Source: Segatella oulorum JCM 14966 (GTDB taxonomy: Bacteria; Bacteroidota; Bacteroidia; Bacteroidales; Bacteroidaceae). Taken from it: a stretch of 64,000 bases of DNA. The stretch lies in NCBI RefSeq assembly GCF_000613785.1, contig NZ_BAJQ01000005.1, forward strand, positions 1 to 64,000. Direction: 5' to 3'. The notes under the pieces were generated by a model, which saw only the letters and a list, made by a program, of their open reading frames with translations, searched no databases and was not told where the DNA came from. Within the stretch, counting starts at the first letter, position 1. Every line of letters begins with the position of its first letter. The position numbers were made by a program, and so were the translations under genes. Shown here piece after piece: positions 2,399 to 9,422 of the stretch.

Positions 2399-3208
2399 TT
2401 AAAGAGTGATTTGACCTGTATCGCTAAGTGACTCGACAAATTTGTGGGCGGCATCGAGTGTTTCGACCTTGCCCACGTCAAGCAGCTGCAAATTTTGCGC
2501 AACACAACCTTTGATAGCCACCTGCCTGCAATTTTTTAGATAAAAATCGATGATGGAAAAGCGATTTGCAAATGATTCCATCAAAGGAAAGAGCGTGGGC
2601 GAGAACAAATGGATGCCCGAGAACGCAAACAGCTGGTAGTTATGCTGAATGGCATCTATCGAGGCTTGTTGCACCTCGGTAAAGGGGCTTTTCACCTCGT
2701 CCGTTGCAAGATTTACCCAGCCCACAAGACGCATCTGGTCGTTGAAGAGCAGATAGCGTTGTGTGACGCGCTGACTCACCAAGAGCACGGCCGATGCCTG
2801 CTCGTGAGGGACTCCGCACGTGGGGCACAGCATCATGCGATCGGTGGTGTAGAACGTGCGCAGGTCGATGTTGCTCAGAATGTCGACGTTATGGATTAAA
2901 ATTGGCTCGTCGGATCGAAAAAGCTGTTGGGCATGCTTCAACCCGCCGCCAGTCTCCAATAACTCGGCGGTTTCATCGCTCACACGGATGTCGACACCAA
3001 AATTATCGTTGGTTTTGAGGTAATCGATGATGAGTGGGGCAAAGTGATGCACGTTGATGACGATGTGGTCGCATCCCGAGACCTTTAACTTCTCGATGAC
3101 GCGCTTGAGCAGTGGTACGCCGTCAATCTCGATGAGTGCTTTGGGCAATTTGTCGGTGAGCGGCTTTAAGCGGGTGCCCAATCCCGCTGCAAATATCATT
3201 GCTTGCAT
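2399..3208 (-). CDS. Sugar-1-phosphate nucleotidyltransferase, MurU-like
   Basis: About 269 residues of a nucleotidyltransferase-fold protein. The signature [15 protein letters not shown] is at the N-terminus and the metal-binding HNVD motif ([11 protein letters not shown]) is about 40 percent along. Closest functional class by sequence feel is MurU/RmlA-type NDP-sugar pyrophosphorylase. In known AmgK-MurU systems such an enzyme activates MurNAc-1-phosphate to UDP-MurNAc, and here the upstream gene is an AmgK-like kinase, so the pair looks like a sugar-phosphate activation module. The substrate is inferred from context. Start chosen at [15 protein letters not shown] nine bases later is possible. 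Confidence 0.82.
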
Positions 3209-3279
3209 AATGTTGATGAGGAAATGTGCTTGCAAGGTGGATTTTTGTCAATGCCCCATGCTGCGCTGGTGTTGCTACG

Positions 3280-4824
3280 CTAATTTCGCGCCTTTAATAC
3301 TTGTTCAATGTGCTGTTCTCGATGTAAAATTTGCACTTCAATGCCAAACTTTTCGTGGATGTGTTGTGCCAAATGCTGTGCACTATAGACAGAGCGATGC
3401 TGGCCGCCCGTGCAGCCAAATGAGAACATGAGATGGGTGAAACCACGCTGCATATAGCGCGCTACATGGTGGTCAGCGAGCTGATAGACGTGTTCTAAGA
3501 AATGTAATATCTCGCCATCGTCCTCCAAGAATCGAATCACGGGCTCATCCAAGCCGGTAAGCGCTTTATAGGGTTCGTAGCGACCAGGATTGTGTGTGCT
3601 TCGGCAATCAAACACGTAGCCCCCACCATTACCCGATGGATCTTCGGGAATTCCTTTGCGATAAGAGAAACTACACACGCGAACAACCAAAGGACCTTTA
3701 CCGTCGTACTTAGAAAAGGTGGCGGGACCGTCTTCCGGATGCGCTTCATACACAGTACTTTCGGTGGTTTTATATCCATCTGTCCGTGCCTGCACAGGTG
3801 TGGGGTTGTCTTGGAACTGCGGCAAGGCTACGAGCCGTGTCAACATCTCGACTAAGTAAGGATAAGGGAAAAGCGCGGCTTGTGCTGCAAGTAACTGACG
3901 CAAACTCTCTATGGCAGGCTGAATAGAGTCTAAGAAATGCTTCTTCCGCTCAAAATAACCGCGGAAGCCATAGGCACCAAGCACCTGCAACAAGCGAAAC
4001 AGCACAAACAATGATAAGCGATTGGTGAACTCGTGAACAGGCGGAACTTCTATATATTGGCGCAAGGAGTTATAATAGGCTTTGATGAGCTTCACCTTCA
4101 GTTTATCGGGATACTTCGCCGAAGCCTGCCAAAGAAACGAAGCTAAATCGTAATAATAAGGCCCGCGCCGACCTCCTTGGAAGTCGATAAAGTAGGGATT
4201 TCCCTGCGCATCGAGCATTATGTTGCGTGCTTGGAAGTCGCGATAAAGAAAACTCTCACCTACCTCTTCGGTTAAATCCTTGGCAAACATGCGAAAGTTG
4301 GCCTCCAACTTTAATTCGTGAAAATCTAAACCGGTTGCCTTCAGAAAACAGTATTTAAAGTAGTTCAGATCAAAGAGCACGCTTTCTACATCAAAGGCTG
4401 GCTGCGGATAACAGTTGGTCCAGTCTAATCCGCGCGCACCACGAATTTGGATGTTGGGCAGTTCACAAATGACATGCGTCAACAACTCTTGCTCATCTTG
4501 ATTATAACGTCCACCAGCTTCGCGTCCGCCTCGAATGGCATCGAAGAGCGATTGTGTGCCTAAATCTGTCTGCAAATAGTGCAATTCATCATCGCTCACA
4601 GCCAATACCTCGGGAACAGGCAATTTTCTCAGCAAAAAATGACGGTCTAAATAGATAAATGCGTGATTTTCGTCACGACTTGTTCCGATAACACCGACAA
4701 TACTGTCGCCGCTGTCTGATATAAAACGATAATATTGCCGATTGCTACCAGCCCCGTCTATTTTCTCAATCTTTGTAGGTGCATGACCTGCAAACTTCGT
4801 ATAAAGCGATATTAATTGCTCCAT
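3280..4824 (-). CDS. AmgK-like sugar kinase fused to a RapZ C-terminal domain
   Basis: 514 residues in two parts. Residues 1 to about 340 are an aminoglycoside-phosphotransferase-fold kinase: catalytic loop YRDFQARNIML (the usual HxD reads YRD) and metal-binding YFIDFQGGRRG. Residues about 377-514 match the C-terminal domain of RapZ, with YVFDCRSTHNPGR and FSFGCTGGQHRSV. In E. coli that domain binds glucosamine-6-phosphate and controls GlmS synthesis through small RNAs; the RapZ N-terminal P-loop domain is absent here. Kinase and sensor in one chain, followed by a MurU-like gene, suggests amino-sugar or cell-wall sugar salvage with built-in metabolite sensing. ATG at 4824 is 2 nt after the stop of the 58-aa gene, implying coupling. 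Confidence 0.87.
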   Translation of the reverse strand: MEQLISLYTKFAGHAPTKIEKIDGAGSNRQYYRFISDSGDSIVGVIGTSRDENHAFIYLDRHFLLRKLPVPEVLAVSDDELHYLQTDLGTQSLFDAIRGGREAGGRYNQDEQELLTHVICELPNIQIRGARGLDWTNCYPQPAFDVESVLFDLNYFKYCFLKATGLDFHELKLEANFRMFAKDLTEEVGESFLYRDFQARNIMLDAQGNPYFIDFQGGRRGPYYYDLASFLWQASAKYPDKLKVKLIKAYYNSLRQYIEVPPVHEFTNRLSLFVLFRLLQVLGAYGFRGYFERKKHFLDSIQPAIESLRQLLAAQAALFPYPYLVEMLTRLVALPQFQDNPTPVQARTDGYKTTESTVYEAHPEDGPATFSKYDGKGPLVVRVCSFSYRKGIPEDPSGNGGGYVFDCRSTHNPGRYEPYKALTGLDEPVIRFLEDDGEILHFLEHVYQLADHHVARYMQRGFTHLMFSFGCTGGQHRSVYSAQHLAQHIHEKFGIEVQILHREQHIEQVLKARN

Positions 4825-4826
4825 GG

Positions 4827-5003
4827 TTAATTCATTTTATTGCGATTTCGCCGTTTATCTTCCCACTGCGCTAAAAGAGCATCAATCAATAGTAGAATCA
4901 TCATGATACCCAATGACATCAAGAAAGAATGGGTATTGACGAGCAACAACACGGACAAAACAGCAAATAATGCAACGCGTTTCCAGTTGAATTTTATTTT
5001 CAT
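4827..5003 (-). CDS. 58-residue membrane protein, first gene of the guaA operon
   Basis: Short ORF with a positively charged start (MKIKFNWKR), two closely spaced hydrophobic stretches (about residues 10-24 and 27-43), and a charged tail (QWEDKRRNRNKMN). I read it as one hairpin or two short membrane helices. Support for it being real: a perfect promoter (TTTG-19 nt-TATCTTTG) ends 5 bp before the ATG, and its TAA is only 2 nt from the kinase ATG. Function unknown; position suggests it is translated together with the kinase-RapZ fusion. Other-strand ORFs over the region lack such signals. Confidence 0.75.
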   Translation of the reverse strand: MKIKFNWKRVALFAVLSVLLLVNTHSFLMSLGIMMILLLIDALLAQWEDKRRNRNKMN

Positions 5004-6255: not shown

Positions 6256-6831
6256 CTAATCTATCTTTGTCTCCTTCACTATTGATAGAAAATGTTGATG
6301 CACCGTGGTGTCAGTGAGTAATTCCGGATGAAAGGCCGTCACAAGCTGGCAGCCCTGCTGGGCTGCCACAATGTGCCCATCGACTATAGCAAGTACTTCG
6401 ACATCATTTTCCACCTCACTAATATAAGGTGCACGGATGAATGACATCGGAATAGTCTGCCCTGCAAAATTATCCTCGGTGAAGAAGCTACCTGTTTGCC
6501 GCCCATAGGCATTACGCTTCACTGTGATATGCATCGTGCTCAATCGCTCACGCACATCATTTTCCACATGCTGAGCCAAGAGTATGAGTCCTGCACAAGT
6601 GCCAAACACTGGCAAACCATTGCAAATATCCTGCCGCAGCGCATCAAGTAGATGCAACTCTTTCAATAGTTTTGATTGCACCGTACTCTCACCGCCAGGA
6701 AGAATCAATCCATCTTTGGGTCGCTCCCAATCGACAGCCTGCCTCACCTCAAAGCTCTCTACACCCAATGTCTGCAACATTTTTCGATGTTCGGCAAAAG
6801 CTCCTTGCAAAGCTAATACAGCTATTCTCAT
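6256..6831 (-). CDS. pdxT: Pyridoxal 5'-phosphate synthase glutaminase subunit
   Basis: Hydrolyses glutamine and passes ammonia to PdxS for vitamin B6 (PLP) synthesis. 191 residues, the normal size. Class I glutaminase signatures are all present: LPGGEST at about 45-50, nucleophile Cys79 in FGTCAGLI, and His168/Glu170 in AFHPEL. Its ATG overlaps the pdxS stop by 4 bases, so the two subunits are translationally coupled. Confidence 0.96.
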
Positions 6832-7706
6832 TTGCCTCGTTCTGCCATTAAGAGTTCAATCTCGTGCTCGTTGATACCCACCATGGCCTCGCCGAGATCC
6901 TCACTGAGTGAAGCTATTAATGCAGCGTCCTGATAGTTAGTGACAGCTTTCACAATGGCTGCCGCACGCTTAGCGGGGTCTCCGCTCTTGAAGATACCAC
7001 TCCCCACAAACACTCCTTCAGCACCTAATTGCATCATGAGTGCAGCATCAGCAGGCGTTGCAACTCCACCTGCAGCAAAGTTTACGACAGGAAGTTTTGC
7101 GTTATCATGCACGTAGCACACTAACTCATAGGGCACTTGCAATTGCTTTGCAGCTTCATAAAGTTCGTCGGTGGCCATGCTTGCTATGCGGCGAATTTCA
7201 CTTTGCATTGCACGCATGTGGGTTACCGCCTGAATAATATCACCTGTTCCTGGCTCGCCCTTTGTACGAATCATTGTCGCTCCTTCAGCTATGCGACGCA
7301 ACGCTTCTCCAAGATTCTTTGCACCACAGACAAAAGGAACCTTGAATTTTGTCTTATCGATGTGGTAAATACCATCGGCTGGAGACAACACTTCGCTCTC
7401 ATCAATATAATCGATATCGATAGCCTGCAGTACTTGCGCCTCTACGAAATGACCAATGCGGCACTTTGCCATCACGGGGATGGATACAGCCGCCTGAATT
7501 CCTTTAATCATCTTGGGGTCGCTCATACGAGAAACTCCTCCTGCAGCGCGAATATCTGCTGGAATTCGCTCTAAAGCCATCACTGCACACGCACCCGCTT
7601 GCTCAGCAATCTTTGCCTGCTCTGGAGTGGTGACATCCATAATCACTCCGCCTTTTAGCATCTGTGCTAAATTGCGATTTAACTCTTGTTGGTTAACTTC
7701 TTTCAT
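6828..7706 (-). CDS. pdxS: Pyridoxal 5'-phosphate synthase lyase subunit
   Basis: Builds PLP from ribose 5-phosphate, glyceraldehyde 3-phosphate and ammonia. 292 residues, one TIM barrel. Catalytic lysines are visible as Lys81 ([10 protein letters not shown]) and Lys149 ([11 protein letters not shown]); phosphate-binding glycine loops are [12 protein letters not shown] and VGSGIF. It lies 47 bp downstream of the GH13 gene on the same strand, so it may be part of a longer fabD-amylase-pdxST transcript; no separate promoter is evident in the gap. Confidence 0.97.
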
Positions 7707-7753: not shown

Positions 7754-9422
7754 TCACACGCTGAATTTCAGAATACGCATGCCAAAAGCTGGAACGTCGA
7801 CATATAATGCTGCATCACGCCTGAGAGGGAGTTCTACCACTGCACCCGTCAGCAAATCACAAGCCTTGACATTGCACAATGGAAGCTGGCAACAATCAAA
7901 GGCATGTGCAGGCAGGAAAACGCCCGTAAATTTATCTTCTGAAGCGAAATTCACGATCACGAGAAGTTTATCATGCTCTGTGTGACGAATAAAAGCATAC
8001 TCGGTATGCGTATCAAAATCACTACGATTTAAATTAGCATACATCAAATCGAAAAACTCTCCTTCCTGAATAACCTTCTCCTCTGTTGCTATTCGTAATA
8101 GCTTATCATAACACTTTTTTAATTGCAGCTCGGTTGATGTAAGTTGCTGTGGAACGGCCTGTGCGCGCAAAAGCGTGTCTAACGACCAGTAATCAAAAAT
8201 AGTTGTACGCCCATCGACTCCACTAAATCCTTCCTTGTCCATACCTCGTTCACCATATTCCTGCCCGAAATGAAGCATAAAAGGATTGGTTCGCAGCAGC
8301 AAAGCCACAGCAACTGCAGGCAAAGCCCGCTGTCCATCATGGGCAAAAAATCACTGGCAATGCGTTGTTCATCGTGATTTTCTAAGAAATAAAGCATGTG
8401 GGTGTGAATGTCATCGGTTGCTTGCCAAACTTGTGTGATAGCGGTTGCATCGCATTCACCACGTACTACACGCCGCAAACAATCATACATGCCAACCTTG
8501 TCATAGAGATAATCGAATCCGCTACGAATGTAAAGACGATAGAGTGAGGGGTTATATACTTCACCAATAAAGCTAACATGCGGGAAAAGTCGTTTCACTT
8601 CAGACGTCGCGTATTGCCAAAAGGCTGCCGGAACCATTTCTGCCATGTCACATCTAAAAGCATCTATCCCCTTTGAAGCCCAAAACAAAAGAATATCAAG
8701 CATCATCATCCATGTGCGAGGTATTGGCGAAAAATGTTCACTTCGTCCACCTGCATCACAATAATCAATGCCATAGTTGAGTTTAATGGTCTCATACCAA
8801 TCACTTTTCTGCGGCGTTGCATGAAAGCAATCATTTCCAGTTGCTTTCGCAGGTTGCTCAATATAAGATGAATGTTTGGCGATATTTTCAAGATTTAGAG
8901 GCTGTCCCCAGCAGTAATAGAAGTTGTTCTGCACAGAAAAATGCTTACTGACATCATCCTTTTCACCCAAATCAGATATACCTGTAGGTTTAGCAATGGA
9001 TTGATATTCGCGTGCTACATGGTTAGGAACAAAATCCATCATTACTTTCAAACCAGCTGCATGTGTACGAGCTATCAGAGCTTGCCACTCTTGCATACGG
9101 CACGGAACATCATCCGCTAAATCAGGATCAACATCATAATAATCCACCACGCATAAGGTGAGCCTGCTTTACCTTTTACAACGTCTGCATGCTGACGCGG
9201 AATACGAAATGCACTATAGTCTGTTTGTGTAGCATGCCGTAATACTCCAGTATACCAAATGTGAGAAAAGCCTTGTGAACGGAGCGCTTTTAACCGTGCT
9301 AAAGTAAAAGCAGAAAACTTACCACAACCATTTTCGGCAACAGAACCTGACTCTTTACGAGTCGGGTTCATATTGCCGAAAAGACGTGGTAATACTTGAT
9401 AAACAAGGAGTTTATGTTGCAT
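7754..9422 (-). CDS. GH13 alpha-amylase-family glycosidase (two apparent frameshifts)
   Basis: Read across three frames this is a single 556-residue GH13 protein. Conserved regions appear in order: MDFVPNHV, DAFRCDMAEM (nucleophile Asp), FIGEVYNP (acid/base Glu), ENHDEQR (transition-state Asp), then a C-terminal beta domain. No signal peptide is seen at MQHKLLVYQVLPR, so a cytoplasmic role in maltodextrin or glycogen breakdown is likely. One base is missing near 9150 (GCGTGG for GCGGTGG) and one near 8340; each piece continues the protein exactly. Its ATG shares an A with the fabD stop (TAATG). Probably intact in the organism, but a real pseudogene is possible because the gene is not essential. 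Confidence 0.85.

Follow-up and report, generated by a model that had tools for sequence, protein, structure and literature searches.

What does the C-terminal domain of RapZ do when it is joined to a sugar kinase? The question is raised by a gene on the minus strand (positions 3280-4824) of a 64,000-nucleotide stretch of Segatella oulorum JCM 14966 (contig NZ_BAJQ01000005.1, positions 1-64,000), which we call the window. Domain profiles and fold matches identify its 514-residue product as a fusion of an AmgK-like kinase with a RapZ C-domain, and the gene is followed on the same strand by one for a MurU-like sugar-1-phosphate nucleotidyltransferase (2399-3208). Reasoning by analogy, we tentatively favor a role for the C-domain as a phosphatase of N-acetylmuramic acid 6-phosphate (MurNAc-6P), in the place of MupP. 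The fusion would then be bifunctional in MurNAc salvage. An amino-sugar 6-phosphate would bind in the CX5R pocket of the C-domain, with MurNAc-6P from AnmK or MurK as the likeliest candidate, and lose its phosphate there, so that the C-domain would stand in for MupP, a HAD phosphatase. Phosphorylation at C1 by the kinase half, as by AmgK, would come next, and the MurU-like neighbor would form uridine diphosphate (UDP)-MurNAc.

Both parts of this pathway are of known kinds. MurNAc salvage in Pseudomonas is described as AmgK and MurU working with AnmK and MupP (PMC5371407), and the AmgK-MurU route has already been reported for Bacteroidia through Tannerella forsythia (PMC13046382, PMC7670621). 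The CX5R likeness of RapZ is also published, Khan and Goerke having pointed out that its pocket resembles the tyrosine-phosphatase loop and speculated on hydrolysis (PMC7199280). What is new here is the link of such a domain to a salvage kinase and MurU: in the open-licence literature we found neither RapZ and AmgK named together nor a RapZ-kinase fusion in Bacteroidetes. To judge by their listings, work that mentions RapZ along with Bacteroides or with peptidoglycan recycling deals with phage resistance and with GlmY/GlmZ, respectively.

Fold and pocket of the RapZ C-domain

The C-domain spans approximately residues 376-514 of the fusion. PF22740 matches residues 380-504 with 109.6 bits (Pfam cut-off 27), and a genome-level profile search places it at window positions 3313-3687 (minus strand) with 113.2 bits. 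An AlphaFold model of the domain alone, made from an alignment of 33 Prevotellaceae-type sequences including that of the window, has a mean predicted local distance difference test score (pLDDT) of 78.7. The predicted fold matches five RapZ entries with Z scores of 12.8-13.8 (112-118 residues aligned, 2.9-4.2 Å) and, after RapZ, weakly resembles the sugar-binding domain of phosphofructokinase. The full-length RapZ model NF003828 reaches 91.5 bits, under its equivalog cut-off of 244. The N-terminal ATPase domain of RapZ (PF03668) was found neither in the fusion nor in any of 69 genomes searched for it and for the kinase, a set made up of 49 C-domain carriers and 20 non-carriers and including the window's own genome (assembly 95% complete). 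The first-pass annotation had described a kinase-RapZ fusion at 3280-4824 that drops the ATPase domain; the coordinates are correct, both halves match their families above cut-off, and the structural comparison agrees with a RapZ C-domain fold.

The pocket loop of the window protein reads GCTGGQHRS at residue 470, and the loop GCTGG[QRK]HRS is present in 156 of the 157 C-domains collected. Its CTGGxHR core is a CX5R motif with Ser after the Arg, and C-x5-R-(S/T), the signature of CX5R (Cys-dependent) phosphatases, likewise occurs in 156 of 157. The exception is the degenerate domain of genome G504 (locus L167), which reads CASGRLSS and retains the Cys but has lost the T, G, H and R. When 142 distinct rows were aligned (77 Prevotellaceae-type, 65 diverse others), this domain was again the only one to depart from the C, T, G, H and R of the E. 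coli loop, and the positions of Asp406, Arg408 and His501 proved invariant in all 65 diverse rows. Compared with the E. coli pocket, the window protein keeps C247, T248, G249, H252 and R253, and only H190 is changed, to Gly414.

In E. coli, RapZ activity is reported to be abolished by H190A, and the C247A and C247S proteins to be inactive (PMC9841335); G249W and R253A are also described as losing function, and sulphate or malonate as bound in the pocket. The E. coli C-domain is reported to bind glucosamine 6-phosphate (GlcN6P; PMC7073468), and density in a crystal with GlcN6P was interpreted as a probable product of its chemical transformation (PMC9841335). The first-pass annotation had taken the domain of the window to sense GlcN6P. 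The loop is kept, but Gly stands at the position of H190, where a substitution kills E. coli RapZ, and GlcN6P sensing in the window is thus a possibility at most.

The E. coli C-domain is also reported to bind the small RNAs GlmY and GlmZ (PMC9841335, PMC7073468), and a domain that does so here would tether RNA control to the kinase. Seven basic residues of E. coli RapZ are described as facing the RNA: K170, R184, K194, R196, R211, R238 and K251 (PMC9841335). Three positions are still basic in the window (K170 is Arg, R184 is kept, R196 is Lys), but K194, R211, R238 and K251 have become Pro, Asp, Phe and Gln. Because four of the seven basic residues are lost, H190 is Gly and the N-terminal domain is absent, we regard an RNA-binding role as very improbable; the RNA-binding domain of E. 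coli is moreover described as restricted to Enterobacteriaceae (PMC7073468). The window protein thus shares with the RapZ/YvcJ family (E. coli RapZ, 5o5o, 8b0i) the fold of the C-domain and the C, T, G, H and R of its pocket loop, and differs from it in these losses and in its linkage to salvage-type enzymes.

The kinase half and the MurU-like partner

The kinase half (residues 1-340) matches the APH family (PF01636) at residues 19-251 with 44.5 bits, above the Pfam cut-off of 23.2. It contains YRDFQARN at residue 194 and IDFQGG at residue 213, presumably the catalytic motifs (D...N, DFQ) of APH-type kinases. In an AlphaFold model of the whole fusion (mean pLDDT 81.6; alignment of 45 Prevotellaceae-type sequences, the window's included), this half is predicted to resemble 3csv (Z 27.6 over 305 residues, 2.8 Å) and N-acetylhexosamine 1-kinase (Z of about 19). 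Model confidence is low in the linker (residues 352-373) and in a stretch that contains Gly414 (residues 409-437). Among NCBIfam families, the kinase half matches AmgK best (NF045759), with 57.1 bits and under the equivalog cut-off of 550; a second AmgK model, NF045698, gives 11.5 bits against a cut-off of 500.

The transferase has 269 residues when started from the ATG at 3208, and a TTG at 3235 is a possible alternative. The best of 43 NCBIfam families for it is MurU (NF045761), at 119.3 bits and under the cut-off of 250. Its closest match in the PDB is 4y7t (1.3e-16), which we take to be P. putida MurU, followed by 8hhd (1.2e-15; labelled MurU), both ahead of heptose and mannose enzymes. 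These matches agree with the MurU-like partner that had been proposed for the fusion, and we consider that kinase and transferase probably form a salvage route of the AmgK-MurU type.

Fusion and separation of the domains across Bacteroidota

The pairing of kinase and C-domain is not a local oddity and recurs in related bacteria. PF22740 was found in 49 of 395 Bacteroidota genomes, once in each; 37 of these domains are fused (frames of 476-524 residues) and 12 are free-standing proteins of 134-169 residues. The kinase half is present in all 49 carriers and in none of the 20 non-carriers tested, which were the first listed of 346, all of the window's class, and not a random draw. Where the C-domain is free, it lies with the kinase and a MurU-like gene in seven genomes and with one of them in two (kinase in L117, MurU-like gene in L116); in the remaining three (L113-L115) neither is a neighbor and the kinase is located elsewhere.

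A MurU-like gene follows the fusion in all eight fused loci read in the phylum sample. We also examined 80 Prevotellaceae-type loci, 78 of which have more than 900 bases downstream. By tblastn, the MurU-like gene is adjacent in 53 of these 78, further off in 11 and not seen in 14, three of the latter having less than 3 kb of sequence; this count was preferred over picking of open reading frames (ORFs; 44 of 76), since overlapping ORFs hid genes. In L066 and L080, kinase, C-domain and MurU form a single ORF of 759-760 residues. In a kinase tree with 82 rows, eight changes of the label "fused" are required, at least three of them forced by well-supported branches, and fusion or fission therefore occurred more than once.

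Two further variations were seen in these proteins. In genome G397, a 736-residue protein (L166:5983-8193) has a B3/4 domain ahead of the kinase and C-domain. The MurU-like protein of the window carries a CPTC motif within a short insertion (residues 126-143 or so); by eye, the two triple-fusion relatives have no such insertion.

Association with genes of MurNAc metabolism

MurQ was found in 21 of the 49 carriers and in all 20 non-carriers tested (full-length matches, two of them just below cut-off), and AnmK in 31 of the 49 (one match being a fragment of 104 residues) against 20 of 20. Among 149 Bacteroidales genomes, 130 have the kinase, 124 the C-domain (never without the kinase), 98 AnmK, 28 MurQ (E <= 1e-50), 138 NamZ and 115 a MurK-like gene; MurK-like genes were sought with the BadF-type kinase from the genome of the window, so that relatives of other function may be counted in the last figure. 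MurQ is present in 20 of the 130 kinase genomes against 8 of the 19 others, and AnmK in 93 of 130 against 5 of 19. In 83 of the 149 genomes, kinase, C-domain and AnmK occur without MurQ, and 62 of these 83 have a MurK-like gene. MurNAc-6P made by AnmK would therefore lack the MurQ exit in these genomes.

This context (MurU, AnmK, MurK-like genes and NamZ, with MurQ often missing) suggests MurNAc salvage, and it supports the amino-sugar theme of the first-pass annotation. As in the Pseudomonas AmgK-MurU system, an APH-fold kinase precedes a MurU-type transferase, and the pair is commoner where MurQ is missing. The differences are that a RapZ C-domain is here fused to the kinase or lies beside it, that no HAD gene next to the kinase was recognized by eye in the loci read, and that the window proteins score far under the curated AmgK and MurU cut-offs.

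These low scores would also suit a trio that handles another sugar, such as GlcNAc, GalNAc or a heptose, with a C1 kinase, a C-domain acting as phosphatase or sensor, and a different nucleoside diphosphate sugar as the product. N-acetylhexosamine 1-kinases are close in fold, and in the phylum sample both AnmK and MurQ are missing from 13 of the 49 carriers. However, AmgK and MurU are the best NCBIfam matches, and the transferase is closer in the PDB to MurU than to heptose and mannose enzymes. MurQ is rarer in carriers and in Bacteroidales kinase genomes, and NamZ is widespread, as reported above, being present even in all five Bacteroidales genomes that have the kinase and lack the C-domain. 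We infer MurNAc as the likely substrate and C1 as the likely site of phosphorylation, and consider another sugar unlikely.

MurNAc genes in the genome of the window

The genome of the window has one RapZ C-domain. Its contig C129 carries a cluster of an MFS permease, NamZ, an acyltransferase-like membrane protein, a BadF-type kinase (MurK-like) and MurQ. The MurNAc salvage genes described for T. forsythia are AmpG, MurT, MurK and MurQ, together with AmgK and MurU (PMC7670621); the C129 cluster resembles the MurNAc cluster of that species, and MurT-like and MurK-like genes are named by analogy with it. The first-pass annotation had associated the kinase and transferase with bacteria that lack the MurQ route. 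This does not hold for the window's genome, where murQ lies with the MurK-like gene, although it agrees with the lower frequency of MurQ among carriers. MurNAc plausibly enters the cytoplasm of this bacterium and is divided there between breakdown (MurK, MurQ) and salvage (AmgK-like, MurU-like).

Phosphatase or sensor

The C-domain may be an enzyme, beyond a sensor. The main alternative is that it acts as an allosteric sensor, to which an amino-sugar 6-phosphate (GlcN6P, GlcNAc-6P or MurNAc-6P) would bind and tune the kinase up or down, so that salvage would track the 6-phosphate pool. This is the proposal of the first-pass annotation with a broader choice of ligand. The binding of GlcN6P by the E. 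coli domain and the conserved pocket loop are in keeping with this, and a regulator is naturally fused to its kinase. In addition, the genome of the window probably makes 6-phosphates through its MurK-like enzyme and degrades MurNAc-6P through MurQ, and a switch between the two branches would therefore be useful. On the other hand, the C-domain also occurs as a free protein, sometimes without either partner alongside, kinases without a C-domain exist, H190 is replaced, and the Cys and the CX5R loop are conserved more strictly than binding would seem to require. The existence of free C-domains, the strictness of the CX5R loop and the results on the Cys of E. coli RapZ lead us to rank a phosphatase above a sensor, though by a small margin, the sensor being nearly as likely.

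The distribution of the C-domain among kinase genomes was also compared with that of possible sources of MurNAc-6P. Six Bacteroidales kinase genomes have no C-domain match (G403, G396, G416, G498, G500 and G528). G403 was dropped since its kinase runs into a contig end, leaving 129 kinase genomes; in the other five, AnmK, MurK-like and MurQ genes gave no match. The C-domain is present in all 122 kinase genomes that have AnmK or a MurK-like gene and in two of the seven that have neither (G410 and G489), a Fisher p of 7.6e-8 that overstates the link, since a paired test finds only one or two independent pairs. The sole C-domain match of G489 (L161:5990-7354) lies on another contig, joined to a CofD/YvcK-type protein, and was counted as spurious. 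The degenerate G504, which is among the 122, has no AnmK; MurK-like and MurQ genes lie about 3-4 kb from its domain. The pattern is suggestive, not proven, and a sensor of MurNAc-6P would suit it equally.

As a separate observation, the C-domain-CofD fusion of G489 represents a further architecture of the C-domain. Genes for a GlmS-like protein and for a hexapeptide nucleotidyltransferase lie close to it, and the contig is possibly a contaminant.

Several points count against a phosphatase. To our knowledge, no activity has been described for any RapZ C-domain. The H190 position is Gly in 63 of the 65 diverse rows and in all 77 Prevotellaceae rows. The C-domain shares the C-x5-R-S loop with CX5R phosphatases, but its fold matches RapZ, and no chain of tyrosine-phosphatase fold is among the structural matches listed, an absence that excludes nothing. 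As for the genomes, a C-domain match persists in 32 of the 37 kinase genomes that lack AnmK (31 without G489). The absence of the C-domain where there is no source of MurNAc-6P amounts to about two independent losses; five of six kinases without a C-domain (G489 included) and the degenerate one form a single weakly supported group (80/63). MupP itself belongs to the HAD family, and no HAD match appears in the fusion in a Pfam search, so that a MupP role would be one by analogy. In the five kinase-only genomes, no HAD phosphatase gene that could replace the C-domain was recognized next to the kinase when the first 70-110 residues of each ORF were read by eye, and no profile was used to look for a HAD-type MupP. 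Finally, AnmK was not found in the genome of the window (assembly 95% complete), where a MurNAc-6P phosphatase would work against MurK and a 6-phosphate sensor fits at least as well.

In the many relatives that have AnmK and lack MurQ, a phosphatase makes more sense than a sensor. Overall, an enzymatic role gives a somewhat better account of why the C-domain occurs free, of its CX5R loop and of its distribution among genomes. If the C-domain is an enzyme, the need of E. coli RapZ for its Cys would be explained, many Bacteroidota would gain a complete route from MurNAc to UDP-MurNAc, and small free-standing proteins would allow turnover of the RapZ ligand to be tested. A sensor would give these bacteria a switch for amino-sugar phosphates that is already built into an enzyme of cell-wall salvage. 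We further speculate, with some reserve, that the RapZ C-domain could have begun as a Cys-dependent amino-sugar-6-phosphate phosphatase and might still be one in Bacteroidota, feeding AmgK-MurU in the stead of MupP and joined to the kinase, at times to MurU too; E. coli RapZ would then have been repurposed, and its GlcN6P "sensing" would be a catalytic leftover.

Flanking genes and other features of the window

A small hydrophobic ORF of 58 residues (4827-5003, minus strand) precedes the fusion, and its end lies 2 nucleotides before the start of the kinase. The MurU-like gene follows the fusion after 71 nucleotides, and guaA, encoding GMP synthase (841-2385, same strand), follows after another 13. 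The small ORF has no Pfam or NCBIfam match above cut-off; among related Prevotellaceae loci, 42 of 78 have a match to it (E < 1e-3) upstream of the kinase. The window is part of a Prevotellaceae-type genome, and the nearest named locus is that of Prevotella sp. HJM029, with 97% identity across residues 1-514 of the fusion. guaA comes after the MurU-like gene in 50 of 71 Prevotellaceae-type loci and in none of the non-Prevotellaceae loci whose neighborhoods were read, and it is probably an incidental neighbor, not part of the system. A functional tie to purine genes was considered and dropped: by names assigned by eye, guaA is found here, purE/purK in L126, apt in L116 and a LOG-type gene in the f5 loci, and none is common.

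Just 3' of guaA, positions 611-758 hold a tandem array of a 42-base unit in 3.5 copies (93% matches). On the other side of the operon, a fragment with a transposase DDE domain (PF01609; 5407-5814, minus strand), apparently a decayed insertion element, lies between it and pdxT. Two vitamin B6 genes, one for the glutaminase (SNO) and one for the synthase (SOR/SNZ), lie at 6256-7706 on the minus strand with an overlap of a few bases. Positions 7754-9422 (minus strand) hold three ORFs that overlap in different frames; the middle one encodes an alpha-amylase (PF00128) and the other two have no Pfam match, and the three are possibly one amylase-like gene split by frameshifts or by sequencing errors.

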